Shown here piece after piece: positions 20,098 through 49,353 of a DNA stretch of 64,000 nucleotides (the first letter of the stretch is position 1; every line of letters begins with the position of its first letter). The notes under the pieces were generated by a model. That model made no database searches, was not told where the DNA came from, and saw only the letters and a program-made list of their open reading frames with translations. Location: assembly GCF_000763575.1 (NCBI RefSeq), contig NZ_CP009170.1:1553501-1617500 (forward strand), read 5' to 3'. This DNA is from Thermoanaerobacter kivui. GTDB lineage: Bacteria > Bacillota > Thermoanaerobacteria > Thermoanaerobacterales > Thermoanaerobacteraceae. Both the position numbers and the translations under genes were made by a program.

Positions 20098-20760
20098 TTA
20101 ACTCTCTCCTAACAAGTCCACAGTTTCTACAAGAGGCTCAATTGGTAAAACATAAAATCCGAACTCTGTCTCTATTATGGAAGCAGAAACACCATATACT
20201 TCCCTGATATTATTTTCAGTAATAACTTCCTCAGGTTTACCTATAGCGTAAATATACCCATCCTTGAGCATCACCAACTTATCTGCAAATCTTGATGCAA
20301 GATTTAAATCATGGACAACTACTATAACTATACGGCCCTCTGTTTGGGCAATCTTTTTTATTATCTCAAAAACTTCTAATTGATGTCTTATATCAAGGTT
20401 GCTTGTAGGCTCATCAAAAAGAAATATTTCAGGCTGTTGTGCCAGTGCACGTGCCACAAAAACCTTTTGCCTCTGTCCTCCGCTTAATTGATCGAGAGAC
20501 CTTTCTGCCAGTTCTTCTATATCCATAAATTTCATAACTTTTGAGACAATATTAAGATCTTCTTCTGTTACGCCCCATTTTAAATGAGGTTTTCTACCCA
20601 TAAGAACTGTTTCCATTACAGTAAAGGGAAAAATTTCTCTGCTACCCTGGGGTACATATCCCATCGCTTTGGCAAGTTCTTTCAAATCTTTTGATGCAAT
20701 ATCTTTACCGTTTAAATAAACAACACTTTCTTGCGGTTTTAGCAATCGAGCTATACATTA
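20098..20760 (-). pseudogene. Truncated FecE/BtuD-type ABC transporter ATPase
   Basis: The frame encodes the last 215 residues of an iron-siderophore/cobalamin-type ATPase. The Q-loop (GYVPQGSREIFPF), signature LSGGQRQK, Walker B EIFLFDEPTSNLD and switch His VVHDLNLA are present. The first 40 or so residues, including the Walker A P-loop, are missing; the preserved part begins at RLLKPQ. Immediately upstream is a truncated bchI. A deletion between the two removed the ATPase N-terminus and presumably the permease gene. ATP hydrolysis should be abolished. Confidence 0.85.
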
Positions 20761-20762
20761 CA

Positions 20763-20891
20763 TCACTTATGCTTATTGAAGCCTTTTTCTCCTCTTATTA
20801 AAACTCCACCTAATTTGGGATTTATAGCATTTAAAATCAGGGCTTTTTTCATCAATTTTTGCCCAACTATTGCACTGAATGGATAATACAT
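20763..20891 (-). pseudogene. 5' fragment of Mg-chelatase ATPase gene bchI/chlI
   Basis: The 42-codon frame starts at an ATG 9 nt after GAGGAGG and encodes [20 protein letters not shown] and [10 protein letters not shown], the N-terminal AAA+ segment of the BchI/ChlI family ending just before the Walker A loop. It then runs out within six codons. The start signal is intact, so a short peptide may still be made. The matching 3' portion of a bchI is found about 10.7 kb away (31436-31597). Confidence 0.8.
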
Positions 20892-20907
20892 CTTTAAATT
20901 CCTCCTC

Positions 20908-21207
20908 TTATTTTGTAATAATATAGATTTTCCCTGTTTTATTATCTTTGTAAGCTTCTCCAAGTTTTTCTAAATCGCCTTTTCCTTCTATAGCTTGTCC
21001 CTTTATATTCTCACTCTGATTGGTAATTTCTTTGATCTGTACAATCTTCCCTACAATCTTCCCTGGATTCCCGTTGAGCATCAGGGAGATTATCAATCCG
21101 CAAGCAAACACAAGCATCAGGTCGGCAAGATTAACAACATAGGTCATAGGATTAAATTCTTCGCTTTCTGCCTCAAGGCGTGACAAGTTGCTCGTTTTCC
21201 TTTTCAT
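20908..21207 (-). CDS. DUF2149 protein, ExbD/MotB-like stator subunit
   Basis: A 99-aa protein with one transmembrane helix near the N-terminus ([18 protein letters not shown]) carrying a membrane-embedded Asp (about residue 29), the position of the proton-binding Asp of ExbD and MotB. The short C-terminal domain has [13 protein letters not shown]. The gene overlaps the upstream MotA/ExbB gene by 35 bases and begins at ATG 21207 behind AGAGGTG. In methanogens and some bacteria, DUF2149 genes neighbour CobN-like and ExbB-like genes. Stator function is inferred from the pairing. Confidence 0.75.
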
Positions 21208-21814
21208 CAACTATCACCTCTATAAATAAATTGGCTATTTCATCCAATGTACTAAGGTATTCCTCATACCATCTTCTTCTTATCCTTGAAATAACATAGG
21301 ATATACCTGCTGCTCCCATACCCACTACCGTATTGTCAAAGGCAACACTAATTGATTCGGCTAATAATTTCATATCACCATTTGCCATCGCTGTAAGTCC
21401 TGGTCCCAATGGTATCAATGTACCCATCAAACCTACAAGAGGACCGAGTCTTGCTATTATATCGGTTTTTTCTAATACCTTAGTTGCCCTTATTTCCTCA
21501 TCTTCAATTAATTTTTTCTTGAGAGCATAAATGGAGTCTGCGGAAAGGTCCTTATTTTGAAAAATCTGGCTCAATATCTCTTTCCCTCTTTTTGGTAATT
21601 CGCTCTCTTCAATAAATTTTTCAAGGTCATTAAAATCAGAAATATTCCTGAAATAAGTTATAAGCCTGTCAGCAGACATTCTCTTTCTACGTACACTTTC
21701 CACCGAAAAACTTCCCAGTTCTACAAGACTCCATAAGAAAAAGATATACAAAAATACAATAACCGGTATAAGCAAACTCTGGGCTATACAATGCAATGTT
21801 TGACTCAAAATCAT
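21173..21814 (-). CDS. MotA/TolQ/ExbB proton channel family protein
   Basis: A 213-aa protein. A first membrane helix spans about residues 10-33. A cytoplasmic domain follows, then two helices around 120-180, with the family motif ARLGPLVGLMGTLIPLGPGL and FDNTVVGMGAAGISYVISRIRRRW. ExbB/TolQ/MotA proteins form a pentameric channel that uses proton flow to drive a partner. Its partner here is the overlapping DUF2149 protein. Finding it with CobN-like and binding proteins in a Gram-positive, which has no TonB outer-membrane receptors, is notable. Confidence 0.88.
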   Translation of the reverse strand: MILSQTLHCIAQSLLIPVIVFLYIFFLWSLVELGSFSVESVRRKRMSADRLITYFRNISDFNDLEKFIEESELPKRGKEILSQIFQNKDLSADSIYALKKKLIEDEEIRATKVLEKTDIIARLGPLVGLMGTLIPLGPGLTAMANGDMKLLAESISVAFDNTVVGMGAAGISYVISRIRRRWYEEYLSTLDEIANLFIEVIVDEKENEQLVTP

Positions 21815-21819
21815 TTACT

Positions 21820-22977
21820 TCACCTCAAATATCCTTTTTTATTCTGGTATATCATACCAGTTATCAGCGTTAATGGTATAAATAAATATACAAAAGTAGA
21901 ATATGTCGGATTTTTTTGGGGAATCTGCTGATTTTCTACAGTAACTTCATAAACATGTCCGGTTCCTGAACCTCCGCCACCTCCACCACTGCTGCTTTCT
22001 TTACCTGTATCTTTTTGATTCGAAATGGATTTGTCCTGAAGATTTGCTTCTTGAGATGCATTCGATGGAGCCTGTGGTTTTGTTTCTATGGCATATCCCT
22101 CTTTGTTTCCTAATTTCTTACTCTCGCTTTTTTCATCGTTTTTAGAAGAAGCAGTCAATACACCTTTTGAAGCAGCTTCATTGTCTGTCCTTGCACCACT
22201 TCCCGAACCTGTACCACTTCCAGTCTCGTTGCCGAATATTATCTCCATAGTATTTGTACTACCCTGAATAGAAGCATTTATGACCTCGGCATCTTTAGGA
22301 AGTGCTTTTTCATCAGAATCAACTTTTCTTAAGTTTATTGACATTTCCCCTGCAGAAGTCGAATCATATCCCTTTGACAAAAATGTTTTTACTTCTTCTG
22401 CCCAATGAAGAGCCATAGGGTTTTCTTCTAATGGTTCATTTCCTTTATCATAATTGCCCAGTGGTTTTAAAGTGCTATCTAAGGAATCTTTAAGTTCTGG
22501 ATATTTCTCAATCAGTGTATTGTATGAACACGCTAAAATTTTGCGATATGCCCGGTCCATCAACATAAGAGAAGAATAGAAATTTTTGGAAACATCTTTA
22601 TCTATTACTATAAAAGCATCAATACGGTGCCTTCCCAAGTCAGCCGTATCAATAACCTCTATGCCTATTATATTACCAGCAGCATCCCATACTGGCTTCA
22701 CACCTAAGGCATACATAGCAACAGAAAGACTTACACCTGCACGATTTATCGCATCTTTTTCTCCTACTTTTACTGCTATGGAATAAGGATAACTACCGTT
22801 ATGCCGAAATATTTCTGCAATCTTTACTTGAGCTAAATGACAGCCTGAACTATATTCATCGGGTGTAGGAGAATTACCTCCTGCACCCGATGCCACTTGC
22901 AACCCAAAACAGCTAAAAATGCATGTTATCAAACACAATAGTAGTAATTTTAACAAACCTTTTCGATATTTAGGCAC
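21820..22977 (-). CDS. Secreted, membrane-tethered protein with CobN-like domain
   Basis: A 385-aa protein. An N-terminal signal peptide (residues about 1-33) is followed by a region (about 60-145) that matches an internal CobN segment: ALGVKPVWDAAGNIIGIEVI and LGRHRIDAFIV parallel MGVKPIWD and LGRPRIDVTF in the nearby full CobN. A long Ser/Gly/Lys-rich linker with SSSGGGGGGSG leads to one C-terminal membrane helix. It is thus an extracellular CobN-derived domain on a flexible tether, encoded 5 bp upstream of the ExbB-like gene. The function is not established. Confidence 0.75.
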   Translation of the reverse strand: MPKYRKGLLKLLLLCLITCIFSCFGLQVASGAGGNSPTPDEYSSGCHLAQVKIAEIFRHNGSYPYSIAVKVGEKDAINRAGVSLSVAMYALGVKPVWDAAGNIIGIEVIDTADLGRHRIDAFIVIDKDVSKNFYSSLMLMDRAYRKILACSYNTLIEKYPELKDSLDSTLKPLGNYDKGNEPLEENPMALHWAEEVKTFLSKGYDSTSAGEMSINLRKVDSDEKALPKDAEVINASIQGSTNTMEIIFGNETGSGTGSGSGARTDNEAASKGVLTASSKNDEKSESKKLGNKEGYAIETKPQAPSNASQEANLQDKSISNQKDTGKESSSGGGGGGSGTGHVYEVTVENQQIPQKNPTYSTFVYLFIPLTLITGMIYQNKKGYLR

Positions 22978-23005
22978 GAAATACTTTCACCTCTGCGTTG
23001 CAGTT

Positions 23006-24403
23006 TTATGGCTCTGGATAAGCCCATACGCCTTTCATAGGTATCCCCAGCCATTTTTCAAAGTACTCTTTCAAAATTTGACTAGGATTGACATCCTTAA
23101 ATCGATCAGGATATAACCGTTTAGCAAAATAAACTGATTCGGTAAACCTGGCTAAATTTGAAATATTTATAAAATATATACGGTTATTCTTGACTGCATC
23201 TGTTTTACTCAAAACAGGGTCTTTTTTAATATTGTCTATTAACTTCATTACCCCTGAGTAATCGTTTGTTGTGTAACCCAGTTCAGAACAGTACACAAAT
23301 ACAATGACTTCTGGATTTTTTTGTAGCAGCCACTCTCCACTTACAAGTTCCGAACTTTCTGAGGGTTTTAAATCAGCTGCTATATTATTTCCACTTATAA
23401 ACTTTATTACTTGGTCATAAGAAGAACCTGGTGGAAAGGTTTTGTATTGTCCCTCTTTAAAACCACCCATTAAATCTAGACATGCTATTCTCGGTTTTTC
23501 CTTATCCTCTATATTTGTTAATCTATTATTTATATTTGATAGAATTTCATTTTTCCAATTTAAAAATTCTACAGCTTTTCCTCCTCGATTAAAAAGTAAA
23601 GCAGTCTTTTTTAAATCTTCATCATACTTTTCTAAGTAATAAAAATCAATACCAATTGCTTTTATCCCCAATGCCTCGATTTTCTCTCCGTACCTCGAGA
23701 CATATCTCCCTTGGAGGAGCACTGCCTGAGGTTTTAACTCAGCTATTTTTTCTATATTAGGGTTTGTCATTGAACCAACATTTGGTTTGTTATCAAAACC
23801 TAAATATGTTCTTTTTTGAACTTGATCACTCACCCCCACTATAAATTCGTCCGGTACTTGTATTATCCTCATCGCTTCTGCTATGTTGGAACTTATTACT
23901 ACCACCCTGTTTAAACCGGAGGCGGATAATGTTACTTCATTTCCTGTAGAATCCTTGATTTTTATATTCCAAACTACTACTGCCCTAGATGTTTCTTTAT
24001 CCCACTTTACATCAGCACCAAAAGCTTCCGCTATAAATCTTAAAGGAACTATTGTCCTGCCTGATAAAACTACAGGTGCAACATCAAGAGTTTTGTTTTT
24101 TCCGTTTACAACAGCTTCCTTTTTACCAATGGTTAATTTTACACTGACATCCTCACCCTGTATTGTCACAGCCTGTGTAGCATCATCCCATTTTACATCT
24201 GCACCGAGGTTTTCAGAAAAGAGCCTTACAGGCACCATCGTTCGTCCATTTTCTATAAAGGGTAAAACATCTCCTGTATTTATCTTTACACCATTTAAAT
24301 AAACCTGTGTTTCCTGAGCCTTAACCGGATTGGCAAGTCCAAAAGCAGGCAACAAAGACATCAGTAAAACAAAAATCATTAAAAAACAAATCTTCTTTTT
24401 CAA
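23006..24403 (-). CDS. Corrinoid/siderophore-type binding protein with copper-amine-oxidase-N-like repeats (copy 2)
   Basis: A 465-aa secreted protein with a signal peptide at residues 1-27. Two copper-amine-oxidase-N-terminal-like motifs follow (NGRTMVPVRLFSENLGADVK and SGRTIVPLRFIAEAFGADVK, about 30-140), then a BtuF/FepB-type substrate-binding domain. The frame could extend to 24454, but TTG 24403 behind GAGGTG aligns exactly with the ATG of the paralogue at 33198. DNA 23949-24402 is almost identical to 32744-33197, while the binding domains differ widely, suggesting gene conversion and distinct ligands. Confidence 0.85.
   Translation of the reverse strand: MKKKICFLMIFVLLMSLLPAFGLANPVKAQETQVYLNGVKINTGDVLPFIENGRTMVPVRLFSENLGADVKWDDATQAVTIQGEDVSVKLTIGKKEAVVNGKNKTLDVAPVVLSGRTIVPLRFIAEAFGADVKWDKETSRAVVVWNIKIKDSTGNEVTLSASGLNRVVVISSNIAEAMRIIQVPDEFIVGVSDQVQKRTYLGFDNKPNVGSMTNPNIEKIAELKPQAVLLQGRYVSRYGEKIEALGIKAIGIDFYYLEKYDEDLKKTALLFNRGGKAVEFLNWKNEILSNINNRLTNIEDKEKPRIACLDLMGGFKEGQYKTFPPGSSYDQVIKFISGNNIAADLKPSESSELVSGEWLLQKNPEVIVFVYCSELGYTTNDYSGVMKLIDNIKKDPVLSKTDAVKNNRIYFINISNLARFTESVYFAKRLYPDRFKDVNPSQILKEYFEKWLGIPMKGVWAYPEP
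23949..24402. repeat. 454-bp long direct repeat, copy A
   Basis: This matches 32744-33197 at a constant offset of 8795 bp, with about three mismatches by eye and no indels. It encodes the signal peptide and both copper-amine-oxidase-N-like motifs of the two binding proteins. Confidence 0.9.
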
Positions 24404-24466: not shown

Positions 24467-24661
24467 TCATCCAATTTCTACCCATTTCTTTGGTTCTGAA
24501 TAAAAAACATTTAAGCCAAGTATTTCCGCTGCCAGCATCAAAAACATTTGGAGGAAATTTTCATTACTTCCCTGTGTCATGTAAGCATAACATTTTGCGG
24601 GTATGTTTATATCGACATTCGACATAGACCAAAACGTAGGGTCAGAAGCGGTGTGTTGCAT
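24467..24661 (-). pseudogene. Small frame, possible remnant of a cluster gene
   Basis: A 64-codon frame (AYMTQGSNENFLQMFLMLAA, then LGLNVFYSEPKKWVEIG). Just upstream a good GAAGGAGGGGAG site precedes a GTG in another frame (VKRITAVVWHSY) that stops after 17 codons close to this frame's start. Joined by a frameshift, the two would make one protein with a CobN-like N-terminus. This is weak evidence; alternatively it is an unrelated small gene or noise. Confidence 0.35.
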
Positions 24662-24877
24662 AACTATGCCATACTACAGCTGTAATTCTTTTCACAAAAT
24701 CTCCCCTCCTTCGCTTAAAACACTAACAAATGTGACGAAGTTAATGTATATAGAGTATACTTTTAAGGATGTTATTTTTATTAAGATGGACAAAACAATA
24801 ACTTCGTTAATTTATCTTTGTTCATCCCTCACCTATGATAGGATGAGAAACTCCTTATTGTTTTAAATTAAAAGGCT
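24662..24877. other. Intergenic interval with CGAAGTTA inverted motif
   Basis: No gene is visible. GACGAAGTTAATG and TAACTTCGTTAAT face each other about 60 bp apart, a possible operator or hairpin; nothing else is evident. Confidence 0.3.
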
Positions 24878-25816
24878 TTAGGTATAACCATGCGAAAAAC
24901 AGAAAATTCTATCAAGCATACGGCATTGCTGTATATAGGGACACTTTCCAATATAAGTTTTAATTTGAAAATCTTCATCCATTATATTACCTATATAAAA
25001 ATCTTCCTGTCCTGCCAAAGATGGACATGGATAAACCTCTCCATTAGGATTTATAAATATTGAATTTCCATTAAATGTTCTGCATTCTTCCCTGTATCCA
25101 TACTTCTTAAGCCTTTCAAGAAATTTAAAAGTTATAGTACGATTTGTAATTTTTTCATGCATATCAGCTCTCTTCAAAGCAGCCTTTACGTTTAAGGCAA
25201 TTTCTTCTTCTGAAGGAACAGACATATCAAAAGCATTTCCTGTAGGTCGTAATACATTGAAACTTATGCCTTTAACGTTTCCTATATAGTAAACCAAATC
25301 GATAAATTTATTTAGATTTAGAAGGCTTTTTTTTGTTAAGACTGACGTCACATTTACGCAAATACCAGACTCTTTTAAAAGTTCCATGCCTTTCAAAACA
25401 TCCACAGTAGAAGAACGAGAACACCTATTGCGATAAGGCCGCATGATGTCATTTACTTCAGGTACACCATCAATACTTACTCCTATACCTATATCTAGGT
25501 TTTTAAGTTTAGATATATTTATATCATTCAGAAGGGTACCATTAGTCTGAATCTGAAAAATACAAGAAAGACCTTCCTTACGTGATTCTTTTACAAATCT
25601 CTCAATGAGAGGAAGGTTTAAGAGAGGCTCTCCGCCTGTAAATTGAACTAAAAACATATGGGAATTCTCTTTGTTCTGCTTCTTTATAAATTTCAATATG
25701 CTTTCTGCCGTATCCCATGACATATCACCATACTTCCCTGTATTTTTTGAAGCATAACAGTAACGACAGGAAAGATTACACCTTCCTGTTACAGCAATGA
25801 CAAAAAGTTTCACCAT
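24878..25816 (-). CDS. Radical SAM/SPASM protein of the chelatase cluster
   Basis: A 312-aa protein. CNLSCRYCYA (residues about 13-21) binds the [4Fe-4S] cluster and TGGEPLL binds SAM. SPASM-like cysteines appear in CRTFNG, VYPCPS and CPYIQQC. The end (IFCFSHGYT) looks abrupt compared with usual SPASM proteins, so a short truncation is possible. It lies between an ABC-2 permease gene and the second binding-protein block. Its substrate is unknown; peptide or cofactor modification would fit the fold. Confidence 0.8.
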   Translation of the reverse strand: MVKLFVIAVTGRCNLSCRYCYASKNTGKYGDMSWDTAESILKFIKKQNKENSHMFLVQFTGGEPLLNLPLIERFVKESRKEGLSCIFQIQTNGTLLNDINISKLKNLDIGIGVSIDGVPEVNDIMRPYRNRCSRSSTVDVLKGMELLKESGICVNVTSVLTKKSLLNLNKFIDLVYYIGNVKGISFNVLRPTGNAFDMSVPSEEEIALNVKAALKRADMHEKITNRTITFKFLERLKKYGYREECRTFNGNSIFINPNGEVYPCPSLAGQEDFYIGNIMDEDFQIKTYIGKCPYIQQCRMLDRIFCFSHGYT

Positions 25817-25839: not shown

Positions 25840-26643
25840 TTAATCAGCCGATTTTTTGTAAGCTGCTGATACTGCCAGTAAATACATTATTGCCGCCCAA
25901 AAAAATACAACAGCTATAATAAATGGTGAAAATTCCCTGTTCAAAGCTATGCTTCTTAGTGAATAGCTTATGGGAGTTAAAGGCAGCATCCAGATGAAAA
26001 CTTTAACAATAAGAGGCATAGAGTCTACAGAGAAAAAGGTTCCTCCTAAAAATGTCATAGGAAGTATAAAAAAAGTCCCAAAGTTTGCCATATCTCCATG
26101 GGAATTCGCTACCATTGCCGCTACAACCCCAAGAGAGGCAAAAGTAAAACAAGATGCAATAAGTACTACAAAAAAAACTGGCGTTAAATTAATATGAGCA
26201 CCAAAAAGCAACCCAAGGACAAGCAAAATAAGACATGAGGTCATACCTTGCAGTGCACCTGCCAAAACTTCTCCCAGTACAACTGAGGAGATCTTTATAG
26301 GTGCCAGCACATATTGGTCAAAAGTTTTAAAGATTGTTCGCCTTATATTTAAATCAGCGGCAATAGAATTATAACTGTTGCTTAAAGATGATAATGCTAT
26401 AATACCGGGCAATACAAAATCCAGATAATTAGTACCGCTAACAGACATATTTTTACCCAATCCCAATCCAAATGTAGTAAGGAACAACAAGGGACTTACA
26501 ATGTTACCTGCTAAAATTTTTCTGAAGCGTTTTTTCCAGCAAATCATTTCTCTCCAAAATATAGGATAAAATTTTAATAATTCTTTCATACTCCTTTTAT
26601 AAATCTTGAGCAATAAGGCTTTGAATGCCGAATAGTTGCTCAA
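25840..26643 (-). CDS. ABC-2 type transporter permease
   Basis: A 267-aa membrane protein with about six predicted helices and the ABC-2 pattern (FLPGIIALSSLSNSYNSIA, later FILPMTFLGGTFFSVDSMP). A basic amphipathic N-terminus precedes the first helix. Translation seems to start at TTG behind GGGAGGATT. With the ATPase gene 47 bp upstream it makes a DrrAB-like exporter. The substrate cannot be inferred; position within the B12-riboswitch cluster suggests a role in metal or tetrapyrrole handling. Confidence 0.85.
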   Translation of the reverse strand: MSNYSAFKALLLKIYKRSMKELLKFYPIFWREMICWKKRFRKILAGNIVSPLLFLTTFGLGLGKNMSVSGTNYLDFVLPGIIALSSLSNSYNSIAADLNIRRTIFKTFDQYVLAPIKISSVVLGEVLAGALQGMTSCLILLVLGLLFGAHINLTPVFFVVLIASCFTFASLGVVAAMVANSHGDMANFGTFFILPMTFLGGTFFSVDSMPLIVKVFIWMLPLTPISYSLRSIALNREFSPFIIAVVFFWAAIMYLLAVSAAYKKSAD

Positions 26644-26690: not shown

Positions 26691-27578
26691 TTACAGTGGC
26701 TTGTTTTCGCATATTTCACCGCCTGTAATTTTAACAAAAACATCCTCAAGGTTTGATTCCCTTATGTTTATATCTGTGTCCAAAGATTGTGCATATTCCA
26801 AGGCTTCCGTCCTTGATGAAAAAAACCGTCTTACTGTAGTATCGTTTTCAAGATATTCCAGTACAACATTGCCTGTTTGTTTTTTTAATTCGTCAGGACT
26901 GCCAATTGCTATCAGCTTGCCTTTATCAATTATTGCCACCCTGTGACAGAGTTTTTCTGCCTCTTCAATATAATGAGTAGTAAGGAGGACTGTCATACCG
27001 CTTTGATTCATTGTTTTTATTAAATCCCATATTTTTCTCCTTGTCTGAGGGTCAAGTCCTACTGTTGGCTCATCAAGAAAGAGTACCCTCGGTCTATGCA
27101 TCAGTGCTCTGGCAATCATAAGCCTGCGCATCATACCGCCAGAAAATTTATCAACATTGACATTCGCTTTGTCCATAAGCCCAACATAATCAAGAAGTTC
27201 CTCTATTCGCCTCCTCCTTTCTTCTTTTTCCATACCGTAAAGCATGCCGTTAAGCTCTAAATTTTCCCATGCACTTAACTCTTTTTCAAGATTCAGTTGC
27301 TGTGGCACAACACCAATCTGTTTTTTTACTTCCAAAGACTGACTTCTTACATCATAACCATTTATATATGCTGTACCAGATGTAGGACGGCTTAATGTTG
27401 TGAGTATCCTTATAGTAGTAGTTTTACCTGCTCCATTGGGCCCTAATAGTGCAAAAATCTCTCCACGAGACACTTCAAAGCTTATTCCATCAACAGCCCT
27501 GAACTTTCCAAATACTTTAACAAGGTTTTCTACTTTAATCATCGGCTTTTCAGCGTAGACGTTCCTGTCTTCAGCCAT
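26691..27578 (-). CDS. ABC transporter ATPase (DrrA-like)
   Basis: A 295-aa ATPase. Walker A GPNGAGKTT, signature FSGGMMRR, Walker B RVLFLDEPTVGLDP and switch TTHYIEEAE are intact. A C-terminal extension of about 70 residues is typical of DrrA/NatA-type exporter ATPases. It pairs with the permease downstream. Its GGAGGTGG site is about 15 nt from the ATG, rather far, so the real start may differ slightly. Confidence 0.9.
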   Translation of the reverse strand: MAEDRNVYAEKPMIKVENLVKVFGKFRAVDGISFEVSRGEIFALLGPNGAGKTTTIRILTTLSRPTSGTAYINGYDVRSQSLEVKKQIGVVPQQLNLEKELSAWENLELNGMLYGMEKEERRRRIEELLDYVGLMDKANVNVDKFSGGMMRRLMIARALMHRPRVLFLDEPTVGLDPQTRRKIWDLIKTMNQSGMTVLLTTHYIEEAEKLCHRVAIIDKGKLIAIGSPDELKKQTGNVVLEYLENDTTVRRFFSSRTEALEYAQSLDTDINIRESNLEDVFVKITGGEICENKPL

Positions 27579-27657: not shown

Positions 27658-30600
27658 TTAAGTATATTCTTCTAATTTACCTTCAATATCAAGATAAATT
27701 TCTCTCAGTTTATTTTTGAGTTCCTCAGAAGGTTGCCACATATCTCTTTGTATAGCTTCAAGAAGGTTTTCCACAATATTCTTTAAAGCCCATGGGTTTT
27801 CTTCTTTAAACCATTGCTGCATATCCTCATTCAGAGCATATTTTTTTGCCAGTTCCTCATAAAGCCAGTCATCCAACACTTCTGCCGTTGCATCCCAACC
27901 AAAGGCTGTTTCCACCATATGTGATAAATCTCCTGCTCCTTTATATCCATGCCGCTTCATGCTTTCTATCCACTTAGGGTTAAGTATGCGTGCACGGAAT
28001 ATACGACGTGTTTCTTCTTCAAGTGTTCGCACTTTAACCCTTTCAGGATCTGAAGTATCTCCGCTGTAAGAATGAGGTAAAGAGCCTTTTAGAGCTTTTA
28101 CTGCTGCTACCATCCCTCCATGATATGAGTAAAAATCATCGCTGTCAAACATATCTATTTCTCTGCTATCTTCATTTTTAACCGTAGCATCTATAGATGC
28201 CAGTCTTCTGGAAAAAACATCCGCAGCTTCAAGACCATAGGTATTCCTGCTATATACATAACCGCCCCATGTAACATATACATTACATAAATCCTTTTCG
28301 TCTTTCCAATTTTTAGATGTAACGAGGTCACTCACACCCGCTCCGTAAGTTCCCGGCTTATCGCTGAATATGCGCCACAAAGCTTCTTCTCTTGCCTTAA
28401 CTGGATTCACTCCTTTTGAAACCTTTTCTTTAATTTCTTCTCTTACATGTTTTGATATATAATTCATATCATCCGGCTCATCAAGGGATGCTACCATCTC
28501 CACTGCTTTATCTAAAAGGTGTATCACATTCAACATAGCATCTCTGAACATACCACTTACCCTGAAGGTAACATCAATTCGAGGTCTTCCAAGTTCTTCA
28601 AGGGGAATGACAGATAAACCTTTGACTCTTCCACTTTTTTCATCCCATATAGGTTTTACTCCCATGAGATAAAGAGCCTCTGCTATATCGTCTCCTCCTG
28701 TTCGCATGTTGGAAGTGCACCATACTACAATCCCAACCATCTCAGGATAAGAATTAGTTTCTTCCTTATGTTTTTGTAACAGTGAGTTTGCAAGTTCTAC
28801 TCCTATTTTCCATGATGAACGAGTAGGCACTGCCTGAGGGTCTATAGAGTAGAAATTTCGCCCAGTAGGAAGAATATCCACCATTCCCCGGGTTGGAGCA
28901 CCAGAAGGTCCTGGAGGTACAAAATTACCTTCAAGGGCTTTAATACAATTTTCAATCTCCTGCGTCGTACCTTTAAGAGCCGGTACAACCTTTTCGCTTA
29001 TAAACTCTAATATCTTCGTTAATTTTTCTGTGTTTTTTCCAAGTATATTCATGGAAATATCTTTAATCTTTTCCCTCTCAAAACCCTCCTCACAAAAAGT
29101 CTTTACCAGCATTTTACTCTTTTCCTCAATCATGTCCAGTACTTCTGCATATGTGCAGGACAACTCAACAGAATAAAACCCGGGGTTCTTTATTAATTCT
29201 TCATAATTATATCCTAAGGTTTCTGCCAAAGCCTCCCTTAAAGATGGAACTTCCCCATTAGAAAGGCGCGTTAGGGCTAAAATCATCTCTATAAGCTGTT
29301 CTCCTTCAGGTGGCTGCCCCAGTATATGTAATCCATCTCGGATTAAGCAATCCTTTATCTCATAAAGATAGGAATGAATCTTTTCCAAAAATTCCTCCCA
29401 GTCTTTTTCCGCTTCTTCCTTTGTTATCTTTAAATCACTATCAAGCTTTAAATCCTCCACTTTTTCCCATATAAGGCTGCGCAGAATCGGCAGCTTACCA
29501 CTATCCATATTTTTAGCTTCATTGTATTCTTTGATAAGTACTTCCACATCAGCCATTTCTTCATAAGTGTCCGCTCTGGTCATCACAGGTATAAGATGGT
29601 CAATGATGCAGGCATGAGAGCGGCGTTTAGCCTGTGTTCCTTCTCCTGGATTATTTATAATATAAGGATAGACGTTAGGAAGGTCCATAAGAACAAGGTC
29701 TGGATAACATTCCTCTGAAAGACCGTTTCCCTTACCAGGAAGCCATTCTAAGGAACCATGCTTTCCAATATGATAAACAATATCGGCTTTGAAAACATCC
29801 CTGATCCATCTGTAATATGCGAGATAATGATGTGGTGGAGGCAAATCAGGGCTATGATAGATACTTGCAGGATCCTCAAAAAAGCCGCGGGTAGGCTGAA
29901 CTCCTATGAAAACATTTCCTAATAATATACCTGGAATCAAGAGATGTTCGCCACAGGAAAAAATCTCCCCGGGTGGTTTACCCCAACTTTTTTCCAATTG
30001 TTGTTGTGACACTAAAGGAAAATTAGAATACCAAGTTTCATATTCCTTATTATGCACTTTCCCCACAGCTCTTTTATTCATCTCTTCCGGGCTCAGCCAT
30101 CCCCTTTCATTTGTCAGACCCGAAAGCATTCTTTCCATTAATTCTTTTCCGCTTTCAGGAAGATTTTCTATCTTATATCCTTTATTTTTCATTTCTGTAA
30201 GCAACTTGTGCACACTGACAGGTGAATCAAGTCCAAAAGCACATCCAATCCTGTCATTTCTTGGGGGATAATTATGAAAGATGATGGCAACTTTTTTATC
30301 ACAGTTAGGTTTGTACTTTAATTTAGCCCAATTGAGTGAAAGAGAAGCAACCTTTTTAATTCTATCCTTTATAGGGACATATTTTGTCACAACTGCTCCT
30401 GTCAAAGGATCCCTTTCAAGTTCTTCCCTTGTTGCAATAGGAACTGTGATAATGTCACCGTCAAATTCGGGAAGTGCCATGCTCATAACTACATCCAGAG
30501 GCCCAAGACCTTGTACGCCTTCTTTCCAATCTTTAAAAGGTGTTAGAGCAAGAATAGCTTTTATAATAGGTTTACCAAGTCTTTTGTAAAAATTTCCCTC

Positions 30601-31413
30601 TAATACCCTGCTAAATGTAGGTGTGGCAACGGTTTGAGAAAACATAAGGGTGTTTATGACAGCATCAACTACTGCTATACCATTTTGCATAAAGTAATTA
30701 TCAATTACCCATTCAATTCCCTTACTGCCAAATCCATCATTTTTTGAAGTATTTAAAAACACAGGAATAGATGTACCTCCAAGATTTTCAATTTCTCTTA
30801 TTAAATCGTTTATAAATTCTATATTACCTGCATTCCAATAACTTTGATAAAAGATAATCCCTATGACTGGCTTTTTCTCCTTTAATCTTTCCTGTATAAA
30901 AGACTTAGCTTCAATTTTATCGCTATAATCCGGATGGTATATGCCTTCCCATGGAAGAGGTTCAGGTTCTATAACAGAAAAACTGGTCTTTGAAAATCTA
31001 TTGGAAATCCAAAGAAAAAGGTTTTCAAAATTAGAAATCCCTCCATAACTTATATAACGATAAACTGTAAAGTATTCTTTTTCACTTAACGTGCTCATTT
31101 TATAAAGCTCCTGATAGTCTTCCCCGGAACAAGGCAAAACTGCTATTCCTATGCCCTTCTCTTTAGAAAGCTTGCTAATCTTATCAACGGCAGGTAAAGA
31201 ATCTGTTCCCCCCATGAGATGAATTATTATCATATCTGAACTCAATGCAAGCTCTATGAGTTCCTCTTCCTTTTTTAAACCCTCTACATCTCTTTTACTT
31301 CTCGCAGCCATATTAACAATAGGACCATATTTTGAATAAATATTCCTTACAGCATTACTGACATTTATCAGTTCTGTGTCAATAGCAGTATAAAACAGTA
31401 TTTTTGTCGCCAC
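27658..31413 (-). CDS. cobN: CobN/Mg-chelatase H-subunit family protein
   Basis: A 1251-aa full-length CobN/BchH-family chelatase subunit. The hallmark HIGKHGSLEWLPGKGNGLS lies mid-protein, and later VVWCTSNMRTGGDDIAEAL and GAGVSDLV are seen. Classical CobN inserts cobalt in the aerobic B12 route together with CobS/CobT. Here the presumed partner is BchI, which survives only as fragments. The gene starts at GTG behind GGGAGGATC and follows a binding-protein gene under a cobalamin riboswitch. In anaerobes such CobN proteins have no proven substrate; dechelation or cobalt scavenging are possibilities. Confidence 0.9.
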   Translation of the reverse strand: MATKILFYTAIDTELINVSNAVRNIYSKYGPIVNMAARSKRDVEGLKKEEELIELALSSDMIIIHLMGGTDSLPAVDKISKLSKEKGIGIAVLPCSGEDYQELYKMSTLSEKEYFTVYRYISYGGISNFENLFLWISNRFSKTSFSVIEPEPLPWEGIYHPDYSDKIEAKSFIQERLKEKKPVIGIIFYQSYWNAGNIEFINDLIREIENLGGTSIPVFLNTSKNDGFGSKGIEWVIDNYFMQNGIAVVDAVINTLMFSQTVATPTFSRVLEGNFYKRLGKPIIKAILALTPFKDWKEGVQGLGPLDVVMSMALPEFDGDIITVPIATREELERDPLTGAVVTKYVPIKDRIKKVASLSLNWAKLKYKPNCDKKVAIIFHNYPPRNDRIGCAFGLDSPVSVHKLLTEMKNKGYKIENLPESGKELMERMLSGLTNERGWLSPEEMNKRAVGKVHNKEYETWYSNFPLVSQQQLEKSWGKPPGEIFSCGEHLLIPGILLGNVFIGVQPTRGFFEDPASIYHSPDLPPPHHYLAYYRWIRDVFKADIVYHIGKHGSLEWLPGKGNGLSEECYPDLVLMDLPNVYPYIINNPGEGTQAKRRSHACIIDHLIPVMTRADTYEEMADVEVLIKEYNEAKNMDSGKLPILRSLIWEKVEDLKLDSDLKITKEEAEKDWEEFLEKIHSYLYEIKDCLIRDGLHILGQPPEGEQLIEMILALTRLSNGEVPSLREALAETLGYNYEELIKNPGFYSVELSCTYAEVLDMIEEKSKMLVKTFCEEGFEREKIKDISMNILGKNTEKLTKILEFISEKVVPALKGTTQEIENCIKALEGNFVPPGPSGAPTRGMVDILPTGRNFYSIDPQAVPTRSSWKIGVELANSLLQKHKEETNSYPEMVGIVVWCTSNMRTGGDDIAEALYLMGVKPIWDEKSGRVKGLSVIPLEELGRPRIDVTFRVSGMFRDAMLNVIHLLDKAVEMVASLDEPDDMNYISKHVREEIKEKVSKGVNPVKAREEALWRIFSDKPGTYGAGVSDLVTSKNWKDEKDLCNVYVTWGGYVYSRNTYGLEAADVFSRRLASIDATVKNEDSREIDMFDSDDFYSYHGGMVAAVKALKGSLPHSYSGDTSDPERVKVRTLEEETRRIFRARILNPKWIESMKRHGYKGAGDLSHMVETAFGWDATAEVLDDWLYEELAKKYALNEDMQQWFKEENPWALKNIVENLLEAIQRDMWQPSEELKNKLREIYLDIEGKLEEYT

Positions 31414-31435: not shown

Positions 31436-31597
31436 TTAATTTCGTCTTTTATCTGTTGCTTTTGCTATAACCTCCTCAAAAGCTCTTATCATGTTCTTTA
31501 AGAGATTTCCTTCCTTATTTTCTATCTCTACACGGGCTAATGGATCGTCTATCCCCTCTACTGATACGCAAAGCCCAAATCTGTCTAAAAGCTGCGG
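31436..31597 (-). pseudogene. 3' fragment of bchI/chlI
   Basis: A 53-codon frame beginning PQLLDRFGLCV (the conserved segment of BchI/ChlI after sensor 1), then DDPLARVEI, ending in TAA just before cobN. It has no start signal; upstream it is fused out of frame to the signal-peptide end of the CobN-like tethered gene at the shared sequence CAAGTAAA (about 31600-31610). The deleted stretch would have held the rest of that gene, the ExbB-like and DUF2149 genes and the 5' half of bchI. Confidence 0.8.
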
Positions 31598-31754
31598 CTT
31601 TTACTTGAGGCAAATGACAGCCTGAACTATATTCATCGGGTGTAGGAAAATTACCTCCTGCACCCGATGCCACTTGCAACCCAAAACAGCTAAAAATCCA
31701 TGTTATCAAACACAATAGTAGTAATTTTAATAAACCCTTTCGATATTTAGGCAC
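31515..31754 (-). pseudogene. 5' fragment of the CobN-like tethered-protein gene (copy 1)
   Basis: The first 52 codons (signal peptide plus the segment through CHLPQVK) are nearly identical to the start of the gene at 22977. The frame then runs out of frame into bchI sequence and stops. A hybrid exported peptide of about 79 residues may still be made, but the CobN-like domain and membrane anchor are absent. Confidence 0.85.
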
Positions 31755-31782: not shown

Positions 31783-33198
31783 TTATGGCTCTGGATAAGC
31801 CCATATACCTTTCATAGGTATCCCCAGCCATTTTTCAAAATACTCCTTTAAAACCTGATTGGGGTTGACATCTTTAAAGCGCTCAGGATAAAACCATTTA
31901 GCAAGATATAACGTCCCAAGATATGTTTTATCTCCTCCAAGTAAGTGCTTCTCAATAATATAAACCTGCTTATTTTTACCAGCATTGGTTTTACTTATAA
32001 CAGGATTAGTTATGGCACTATCTCTTAATTTTACAACATTCGTATTGTCTTTTACAGTATATCCAAGCACATCTTTTTCATAAGCACTTAGAACTATTTT
32101 ATCAGGATTTTTTTCTAAAACCCATTCTGGGTTTACTTTAGGATAATCCTTCATATCGCGAGCAACATTGATTCCACCAGCTGCTTCTAATCCTTGATGA
32201 ACAGAAGTATTTTGACCATATATTGTCCATGTGGTTGCCGTCAGGGAATTATTACCCATTCCAATGTCCATTCCAAACACCTTAAACTTATCTTCTGCAT
32301 TTAAACTCTTTATTCTGTCAGCTACAATGGCTGTTGCATTTGCCTTCCATTGCATAAACTCATCAGCTGTCTTTACCCTTCCAAATATTTTAGCCAATGT
32401 TTTAAGGTCATTATTATATGTTTCTGGTTTAAAAAAGTCAAGCCTTATAACCTTTATACCTGCAGGCTCCAACTTCTCTTCCAATGTTTTATCAGGATAC
32501 TTACCGTAAGCAATTACTGCCTGTGGTTTTAGCTCCATAATCTTTTCTAAACTGGGCTTAAAAGCACCTCCAACACTTGGTTTGTTATCTAAGCCAAGAT
32601 AAGGAGAATATGATGATGTAGAATCACTTACACCTATGATAAAATCATCTGGAATCTGCAAAATACGAAGAGCCTCTGCTGCATTGGCATTAAGAATGAC
32701 TAACCTGTTCAATCCAGCAGGTACTGTTACGTCATTCCCCGTGGAATCCTTGATTTTTATATTCCAAACTACTACTGCCCTAGATGTTTCTTTATCCCAC
32801 TTTACATCAGCACCAAAAGCTTCCGCTATAAATCTTAAAGGAACTATTGTCCTGCCTGATAAAACTATAGGTGCAACATCAAGAGTTTTGTTTTTTCCGT
32901 TTACAACAGCTTCCTTTTTACCAATGGTTAATTTTACACTGACATCCTCACCCTGTATTGTCACAGCCTGTGTAGCATCATCCCATTTTACATCTGCACC
33001 GAGGTTTTCAGAAAAGAGCCTTACAGGCACCATCGTTCGTCCATTTTCTATAAAGGGTAAAACATCTCCTGTATTTATCTTTACACCATTTAAATAAACC
33101 TGTGTTTCCTGAGCCTTAACCGGATTGGCAAGTCCAAAAGCAGGCAACAAAGACATCAGTAAAACAAAAATCATCAAAAAGCAAATCTTCTTTTTCAT
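31783..33198 (-). CDS. Corrinoid/siderophore-type binding protein with copper-amine-oxidase-N-like repeats (copy 1)
   Basis: A 471-aa secreted protein with the same architecture as the copy at 23006-24403: signal peptide, two VPxRF/GADVKWD motifs, then a substrate-binding domain ending KWLGIPMKGIWAYPEP. The first 150 residues are almost identical to copy 2; the middle of the binding domain is not, which points to different ligands. It is the first gene after the cobalamin riboswitch and starts at ATG behind AAGGGAGGG. There is no lipobox, so anchoring may rely on the N-terminal repeats. Confidence 0.87.
   Translation of the reverse strand: MKKKICFLMIFVLLMSLLPAFGLANPVKAQETQVYLNGVKINTGDVLPFIENGRTMVPVRLFSENLGADVKWDDATQAVTIQGEDVSVKLTIGKKEAVVNGKNKTLDVAPIVLSGRTIVPLRFIAEAFGADVKWDKETSRAVVVWNIKIKDSTGNDVTVPAGLNRLVILNANAAEALRILQIPDDFIIGVSDSTSSYSPYLGLDNKPSVGGAFKPSLEKIMELKPQAVIAYGKYPDKTLEEKLEPAGIKVIRLDFFKPETYNNDLKTLAKIFGRVKTADEFMQWKANATAIVADRIKSLNAEDKFKVFGMDIGMGNNSLTATTWTIYGQNTSVHQGLEAAGGINVARDMKDYPKVNPEWVLEKNPDKIVLSAYEKDVLGYTVKDNTNVVKLRDSAITNPVISKTNAGKNKQVYIIEKHLLGGDKTYLGTLYLAKWFYPERFKDVNPNQVLKEYFEKWLGIPMKGIWAYPEP
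32744..33197. repeat. 454-bp long direct repeat, copy B
   Basis: Partner of 23949-24402. A second, shorter similar block (about 31600-31850 against 22825-23060) covers the 3' end of the binding-protein genes and the start of the next gene, with more differences. Confidence 0.9.
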
Positions 33199-33542: not shown

Positions 33543-33590
33543 CAAAAATAAAACCTCTTAACTTACCAACGGTGTTAAGAGGTTAAAAAA
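33543..33590 (-). terminator. Riboswitch-associated terminator
   Basis: An 11-bp perfect stem (33552-33562 with 33574-33584) followed on the minus strand by TTATTTTTG. It lies about 60 bp past the cobalamin aptamer, so transcription attenuation is the likely mechanism. Confidence 0.8.
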
Positions 33591-33642
33591 CACATATGTA
33601 TCCCTTTCTAACACCCCCTCTATCGACCGTAGAGTAAGTGTA

Positions 33643-33882
33643 ACACAAATACAGGCAGGTCTCCTGACTTAGGTTCATCGCTCTTTACGCCTTCCCATCC
33701 GTCACTCAGCGGAGCATGTTTTTATACGAAATATAATTTGTTAAATTCGTGCTCCGCTAAGTGACGGACAGTGGCATAATGTAAAGAGCTCACCATCACA
33801 GTGGCGGGACCGTGCAGGACTTTCACCTGCTTCCCTTTTAACCCAATTTTGAAGCCAAAATTGGGCACCTGTATTCGTTTGT
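33643..33882 (-). promoter_or_regulatory. Cobalamin (B12) riboswitch
   Basis: On the minus strand the aptamer contains AAAGTCCTGCACGG, the CCGCCACTGTGATGG core and the B12 box AGTCAGGAGACCTGCCTGTA (33650-33669). P1 ends pair CGAATACAGG with CCTGTATTTG. A long peripheral hairpin (arms 33700-33718 and 33748-33766) extends the region beyond P5. It should switch off the downstream binding protein and cobN genes when cobalamin is plentiful. Confidence 0.93.
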
Positions 33883-33904
33883 TATTAAATTTTATTCTAA
33901 ATAA

Positions 33905-35711: not shown

Positions 35712-35925
35712 AAATTAAAAGCTCCTGCCAATGCAGGAGCTACAAACTTATCCCATGAAGCCGTAAGGCTATGTTTTCATACCCGCTCTCGCAGGTGGGT
35801 ATCCTGTCACCTGCTTCCGAAGTCCTGTCTAAGCAGGCATTTCTTCCACAGATGAACCCGGATTCCCGTATAAGTTGCGTTGGTTGAAAACAAATTAGCC
35901 TAATACAAACTTCCCAGGATTTCAT
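35712..35925 (-). ncRNA. ssrS: Probable 6S RNA
   Basis: A GC-rich, highly structured stretch with no coding frame. Long-range pairs close it (ATCC..GAAG with CTTCATGGGAT; TAGGCTA with TAGCCTTA; TGTTTTCA with TGAAAACA), enclosing a large internal bubble and hairpins around GCAGGTG/CACCTGC and ATACCC/GGGTAT. It ends in a strong terminator (AGCTCCTGC/GCAGGAGCT, then T-run). The rod-with-bubble shape and about 200-nt length suit 6S RNA, which binds RNA polymerase holoenzyme. A leader of the downstream kinase is the alternative. Confidence 0.65.
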
Positions 35926-49239: not shown

Positions 49240-49353
49240 ACCAAAACTCTCTCATCTTTCAGCGAAACGCTGCTGGAATTGGCACCAAGACGCATATAAA
49301 ATGCCGGTTGCCGGGTTTCATCGGGCCAGTCCCTCCACCACTCTCGATAAGAG
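49240..49353 (-). promoter_or_regulatory. SAM-I (S-box) riboswitch
   Basis: On the minus strand: CTTATCGAGAGTGGTGGAGG, GACTGGCCCGATGAAACCCG, GCAACCGGC, TTGGTGCCAATTCC, then GAAAGATGAGAGAG, which pairs with the 5' end. All S-box conserved blocks are present. It controls metH, and formerly perhaps metF. Confidence 0.95.

Follow-up and report, generated by a model that had tools for sequence, protein, structure and literature searches.

An intact, selected cobN gene in Thermoanaerobacter kivui: a probable chelatase subunit of corrinoid salvage with its likely motor gene elsewhere in the genome

Operon-2 of Dehalobacter restrictus, as presented in the available part of PMC4285132, has a cobalamin riboswitch and encodes CobN, two CbiZ, Mg-chelatase subunits and corrinoid transporters. 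Acetobacterium woodii has a syntenic counterpart; in D. restrictus, corrinoid starvation raised the RNA of operon-2 346-fold and its protein 46-fold on average. The CobNST chelatase is cobalt-specific, and metal entry into its corrin substrate needs energy, according to the portion available of PMC7689651. A single fs-chlD gene can give both subunits through −1 frameshifting at an A-rich site, as outlined in part of the work of Antonov and colleagues (PMC9227772). The functions of archaeal, thermophilic or methanogenic groups annotated as CobN are called unclear in the accessible sections of the EMBO J paper on HmuS (PMC12583661). Here we analysed the cobN gene of Thermoanaerobacter kivui, which lies in a stretch of 64,000 nucleotides (the window; C1:1553501-1617500 of the 2.40-Mb single-contig genome, labelled G000). 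We regard this gene as belonging to the operon-2 kind already described in Dehalobacter. Its product is probably (about 0.66) the large, CobN-type subunit of a class I chelatase driven by ATP, acting in riboswitch-controlled corrinoid uptake and salvage with the motor supplied in trans.

The window cobN is a single uninterrupted reading frame (Table 1). Its product matched PF02514 with 1397.6 bits over profile positions 1-1088 of 1090, scored 1121.8 bits against TIGR02257 (cobalto_cobN, an NCBIfam equivalog with a cut-off of 822.05 bits) and contains the motif HIGKHGSLEWLPGK, which confirmed the complete 1251-residue CobN reported in an earlier note on this DNA. An ortholog with 86% identity was found in a sister genome (G011; loci L051, holding the cobN operon, and L061), with 1251 aa in both and zero frameshifts between them. 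It was the one strong match within the same family when 60 relatives were compared, and no strong ortholog was present in 9 genomes of the same genus. Comparison of the two genes gave dN 0.077, dS 0.704 and dN/dS 0.109; the strongest constraint along the gene was in the tenth that holds HxGxHG (dN/dS 0.026). At 400 sites invariant across 8 outgroup CobNs, the window gene had 2 private changes and the G011 gene had 9. The codon test and the frameshift check proposed in the earlier note thus spoke for a selected gene, and we judge the window cobN to be under strong purifying selection and not decaying.

Our phylogenetic analysis of 26 rows, with the Chloroflexota partial sequence L034 left out, showed that the window protein joins G011 (100/100), then Bathyarchaeota (97/97), and next the CobN of Halorubrum, Deinococcus, actinobacteria and Sinorhizobium (100/99), a clade with four CobNs of aerobic type in addition to Halorubrum. 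A quick tree of 52 rows, from which L080_11496, L098_2243, L088_6900 and L096_2996 were also omitted, agreed in placing it with aerobic-pathway CobN (99 SH-aLRT). Its best relatives of solved structure are CobN (7c6o, 904 bits; 9uk9, 774 bits), with HmuS at 394 bits. The window protein carries the motifs HIGKHG (HxGxHG) and SDDFYSYHGG. At the column of HmuS His-1209, a numbering taken from the available text of PMC12583661, Asp was found in the window clade, aerobic CobN and the ExbB-linked type (the exception being L083, with Cys), His in BchH, HmuS and the paralogs of this genome at 919 and 989 kb, and Cys or Cys-His in the 503- and 984-kb paralogs and the ANME proteins. We found no function in the literature for these Cys-type relatives. 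Of 94 CobN-diagnostic columns, the window protein matched 53, the 503-kb paralog 33 and HmuS 0, the last by construction, as the columns are those separating 4 aerobic-type CobNs from 4 BchH/HmuS rows and HmuS is among the excluded rows. The HmuS motif LSLDHxxEFMGG (His-1209, Glu-1212; DHxxEF) is absent from the window CobN, which has SDDFYSYHGG there instead, and no membrane anchors like those of HmuS were seen (C-terminal hydropathy 0.30 vs 3.19). On this evidence we take the window protein to be a genuine CobN type, grouping apart from HmuS and BchH. HmuS-like heme de-chelation, a lead first raised by the presence of ExbB, DUF2149 and part of a CobN in the window, was rejected for this CobN on motif, tree and hydropathy.

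The genome has 5 full CobN-like open reading frames (ORFs) and 2 copies of a 385-aa partial CobN; the window CobN is therefore one of several paralogs, with others at 503, 919, 984 and 989 kb of the same chromosome. Two BchH-like paralogs (L010 8325-11957 and L012 2458-6087) have 56-58% GC, against ~38% around the window cobN, and are next to CbiM/CbiN and Dpp/Nik-type transporters. These two were likely acquired by recent transfer.

Analysis of the motor genes revealed that ChlI/BchI sequence within the window is limited to a 5′ fragment ending at ~20782 and an 87-bp relic. The fragment comprises 65 residues in a search with the first chlD reading frame, or the first ~110-195 bp of the gene, and lies at the edge of a block that aligns with 14180-11829 of L009, the locus of the same chromosome that includes the 509-511 kb region. 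However, an intact chlD, with a ChlI part and a VWA ChlD part, was identified at C1:510998-513096. Its ORF1 has 405 aa and covers TIGR02442 positions 1-368; ORF2, in the −1 frame, is the VWA ChlD part (TIGR02442 401-641). ORF1 stops just past an A9 run, from which the frame of ORF2 is open onward, and this run is conserved at the same position in L009 (15193-15216) and in G011 (L061 4280-4303). The 511-kb chlD thus apparently gives ChlI and ChlD via a −1 frameshift at A9. In this genome the ORF1 search matched only 2 sites, the fragment in the window and the complete gene. The "broken BchI" of the window is thus the 5′ end of a second, duplicated chlD copy, and the misleading look of a broken motor arose when the window gained part of the 509-511 kb locus. 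With the gene at C1:510998-513096 whole, the genome does have intact motor subunits as well as a ChlD partner. The earlier note was therefore right about the lack of an intact BchI or ChlD within the window but not for the genome as a whole, and its suggestion of a second BchI elsewhere was borne out.

Our search for the cobalamin pathway of the host identified CbiX (PF01903), CbiJ (PF02571), CbiD (TIGR00312) and CbiC (PF02570) among cobalamin genes in the 320-340 kb stretch. Further genes of this run, recognised by eye from sequence features, probably include CbiE, T, L, F, G and H. CbiK was not found in the genome, CbiX being the only one of the two genes the earlier note had asked about. 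CobG remained below its cut-off (28 vs 234.8 bits), which speaks against an aerobic-type pathway; CobZ and CobF were not searched for. Given the CbiX/CbiD route and the CobG score, B12 is therefore made by early cobalt insertion. The statement that an anaerobe uses early insertion is thus upheld by the presence of this route, but as a premise against CobN in anaerobes it was too strong: a PF02514 protein occurs in 36 of the 299 genomes sampled in the phylum, and CbiD is also present in 35 of the 37 CobN-bearing genomes examined further (the 36 and G011). In the main cob locus (L013 4147-6401), CbiZ is accompanied by degraded remnants of chlI and cobN (81 aa), and a cobalamin riboswitch and BtuFCD follow directly.

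Twenty phylum loci, picked mostly by score, were taken for neighbourhood reading, and 16 of them (L075-L090) hold a window-clade CobN. The typical order is SBP-BtuC-BtuD-CbiZ-CobN-ChlI-ChlD-CobA-ABC2 (L086; similarly L085, L088 and L090), where SBP is the binding protein. Strong ChlI/ChlD matches (E 1e-140 or better) were found in 15/16 genomes with a window-clade CobN, and the draft G258 has a partial one. A cobalamin riboswitch lies upstream on the same strand in 12 of the 14 loci scanned. ChlI/ChlD had reportedly been named as partners of CobN by Rodionov et al. in 2003, in connection with B12 elements. The G011 operon comprises the riboswitch, SBP, a transposase-like insert, CbiZ, CobN, CbiK, BtuC, BtuD, ABC-2 ATPase and permease, and a radical SAM (rSAM) protein. 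The window lacks the cbiK-btuC-btuD stretch that separates cobN from the ABC-2 genes in G011, and cbiZ is present only as a 3′ relic. The repeated ends of binding-protein genes are likely the sites of the recombination that scrambled this operon. Between SBP and cbiZ of G011 (L051 16279-18604) there are transposase/resolvase-like ORFs, recognised by eye.

We propose that low cellular cobalamin would permit expression of the operon through the riboswitch. The corrin would be held in the central cleft of CobN, and a ChlI/ChlD AAA+ ring, supplied in trans by the lone intact chlD (~511 kb) whose −1 frameshift would yield both subunits, would power metal transfer. Cobalt would then enter cobalt-poor corrinoids that are imported or recycled. 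The local operon was scrambled, probably by recombination between binding-protein genes of similar sequence: cbiZ was lost save for its last codons, and part of the other locus was gained. Cobalt insertion into cobalt-poor corrinoids is the most likely reaction, since the window protein shares its cleft signature with cobalt-inserting CobN; metal removal is the main alternative.

Several points weigh against this proposal. No chelatase activity was found in the literature for any member of this anaerobic clade, and the window CobN fits 53/94 diagnostic columns, no more. CbiX is already present, and CobN is therefore not needed for de novo synthesis. The riboswitch rule fails in 2/14 loci (L078, downstream only; L083, none). 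The five CobN paralogs share one chlD, which is linked to another CobN type (503 kb), and G011 keeps a second, uninterrupted ChlID (735 aa) that has no counterpart in the genome of the window; compatibility of the motor is therefore not assured.

The strongest competitor, though we think it unlikely, is that CobN, working with ChlI/ChlD, takes cobalt or a different metal out of imported corrinoids or tetrapyrroles that the cell cannot use, the freed cobalt feeding CbiX-dependent synthesis, in the way that HmuS takes iron from heme. The homolog HmuS removes metal from heme, as stated in the available sections of PMC12583661. The operon couples importers with CbiZ and, in G011, CbiK, and the host inserts cobalt by itself with CbiX. 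However, the active-site signature and the side of the tree are those of cobalt-inserting CobN, and DHxxEF is absent. Removal of cobalt from an intact corrin ring is also chemically hard, which counts against it.

A role in corrinoid binding, storage or chaperoning without ChlI/ChlD would fit the fragmentary local chlD copy and the making of B12 without it. We hold this improbable, given the intact chlD in the genome, the ChlI/ChlD-family matches in 16/16 window-clade genomes (15 of full strength, one partial) and the concentration of constraint in the active-site stretch (dN/dS 0.026). CobN relatives without ChlI/ChlD are of a different type, membrane-anchored and adjoining ExbB/DUF2149, and the motor-independent job offered in the earlier note was not supported. 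There is similarly little chance that cobN is a decaying leftover of a broken operon; its heavily rearranged surroundings, where cbiZ, chlI, the mini-CobN and a cobN paralog survive as relics, would suit such a history, but the frame is open, dN/dS is low, the ribosome-binding site (RBS) is kept, and invariant sites have changed less often than in the G011 gene. Least probable is that CobN serves the canonical, oxygen-dependent B12 pathway with its late insertion of cobalt. Profile and tree do show a CobN-like protein, but CbiD, CbiG, CbiJ and CbiX stand in one anaerobic cluster and CobG is not above its cut-off.

Table 1. Features of the window around cobN (all on the minus strand; identities refer to loci named in the text or to L060).
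Position	Feature	Evidence or remark
20098..20745	BtuD-like ABC ATPase without Walker A end, cut at duplication border	82% to L060 16379-15733
20782..20891	Truncated 5′ fragment of chlD/chlI ("broken BchI")	start ~20891, homology ends ~20782
20782..23133	Duplicated block, copy of 509-511 kb locus	blastn, 99.75% (6 mismatches in 2352 bp)
20908..21210	DUF2149 protein	
21173..21814	ExbB/MotA/TolQ-type proton channel	
21820..22977	385-aa mini-CobN: hydrophobic N-terminus, one CobN segment (profile 725-838), C-terminal transmembrane (TM) segment	
23006..24454	SBP2, second binding protein, 3′ end inside duplicated block	profile and blastn
24484..24783	Relic, 5′ end of second cobN paralog (503-kb type)	92-99% to L009 7071-6563
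24878..25816	Radical SAM/SPASM protein	dN/dS 0.23
25840..26643	ABC-2 exporter permease	dN/dS 0.11
26691..27578	ABC-2 exporter ATPase	86% to L051; dN/dS 0.09
27658..31413	cobN, large chelatase subunit, intact, 1251 aa	GTG start, RBS GGGAGG upstream
31436..31531	Relic, last ~31 codons of cbiZ, directly before cobN	aligned to cbiZ 3′ end, L051 14881-14973
31515..31601	Relic, 87-bp internal chlI piece	91% to L009 14726-14640
31600..31754	Relic, 5′ end of second mini-CobN (385-aa type) gene	blastn to L009 12139-10525
31783..33198	SBP1, BtuF-like binding protein (Cu_amine_oxidN1 + Peripla_BP_2)	84% DNA identity to SBP of 507-510 kb locus
33552..33584	Hairpin then U-run, probable riboswitch terminator	fold −29 kcal/mol, z −3.67 for 101-nt stretch
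33637..33887	Cobalamin riboswitch aptamer (RF00174), operon head	Rfam 123 bits (gathering threshold 31.5); 440 nt before SBP1

The hairpin that follows the riboswitch was missed by a consensus terminator scan, which permits loops of 3-8. The promoter and terminator scan of the window showed no excess over shuffles (39 vs 46.7; 8 vs 8.6) and was therefore not used as evidence. Elsewhere in the window there are a 6S RNA (35746-35923) and a SAM riboswitch before metH (49249-49353), both ordinary.

Beside the chlD-linked system, the window has ExbB, DUF2149 and a TM-anchored mini-CobN, in a host without a TonB-dependent receptor. Four of the 37 CobN-bearing genomes (G084, G116, G181 and G196) had no ChlI/ChlD match at 1e-20, and the match of G248 was weak (1.3e-35). 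DUF2149 was found in 13 of the 37. It adjoins a CobN relative in G084, G116, G181 and G248 (two loci), with ExbB present except in G181, while G196 has a partial CobN only and no partner. ExbB-DUF2149 pairs next to membrane-anchored CobN relatives were noted at 20908-22977 of the window and in L096, L097, L100, L101, L053, L054 and L059, and the order ExbB-DUF2149-CobN also occurs in Pseudoalteromonas. Hydrophobic N-termini were seen in the CobNs that adjoin DUF2149, in HmuS and in the Pseudoalteromonas CobN. A C-terminal TM-like segment (hydropathy at least 1.61) was present in 8/8 anchored-type proteins with a complete C-terminus, whereas 0/48 others were above 1.20; the groups, with nine proteins in the anchored one, were set from gene adjacency and the tree, and one anchored protein was placed from its tandem position. 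No TonB-dependent receptor was found in the 13 genomes with DUF2149, the controls E. coli, Caulobacter and Bacteroides being positive, and ExbB-DUF2149 therefore cannot serve TonB receptors there.

This suggests that ExbB-DUF2149 drives a chelatase outside the cytoplasm, as a second, proton-driven class of motor. We tentatively put forward, as somewhat less than an even chance, that the motor in the CobN superfamily depends on the compartment, cytoplasmic members being turned by the ATP-driven ChlI/ChlD ring and membrane-anchored ones outside the cytoplasm by a proton-driven ExbB-DUF2149 stator, in which case HmuU/HmuV would drive HmuS, not (only) a TonB receptor. Such a rule is not stated in the available parts of PMC13227078 and PMC12583661, where these proteins are seen as powering HmuR, or HmuT/U/V are said to possibly affect activity. 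Against a proton-driven motor, the 503-kb locus holds ExbB-DUF2149 and chlD together, G302 has ExbB-DUF2149 without CobN in the stretch examined, and HmuS is active in vitro with NADH, with ExbB not mentioned in the accessible text of PMC12583661. The idea offers a testable view of how chelatases outside the cytoplasm are powered. The mini-CobN is closest to the extracytoplasmic CobN of G084 (36% over 183 residues). Its copies are at 21820-22977 of the window and L009 11985-13142, and it is retained in G011 (L061 897-2219). As a candidate homolog of HmuT it was rejected, with no alignment and no detectable similarity.

Taken against the known systems, the apparent paradox of a chelatase without a motor is removed, the gene being intact and selected and the motor lying elsewhere in the genome, and CobN of anaerobes with early insertion may find its place in corrinoid salvage. 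The window CobN is like aerobic CobNST/CobN-ChlID in its clade, HxGxHG, the Asp at the HmuS-1209 column and the ChlI/ChlD motor, but here the host is an anaerobe with CbiX, CobG is not above its cut-off, and salvage neighbours take the place of the aerobic pathway. With HmuS and HmuT/U/V of Bacteroidota it shares the superfamily, and the window ExbB and DUF2149 are relatives of HmuU and HmuV; however, HmuS is membrane-anchored, has DHxxEF and lacks ChlI/ChlD, and the window CobN is unlike it in all these respects. The 511-kb gene resembles fs-chlD in that, as read from its sequence, one gene would yield ChlI and, by slippage into the −1 frame in an A-rich stretch, ChlD, whereas the window holds only the first ~110-195 bp of such a gene. 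With operon-2 of Dehalobacter, so far as the available description of it goes, the window kind has in common the riboswitch, BtuCD/Fep-type transporters, CbiZ, CobN and Mg-chelatase subunits. The window itself differs in having cbiZ as a relic only, no btuCD between cobN and ABC2, and a chlD fragment, and its host additionally has the full anaerobic B12 set.

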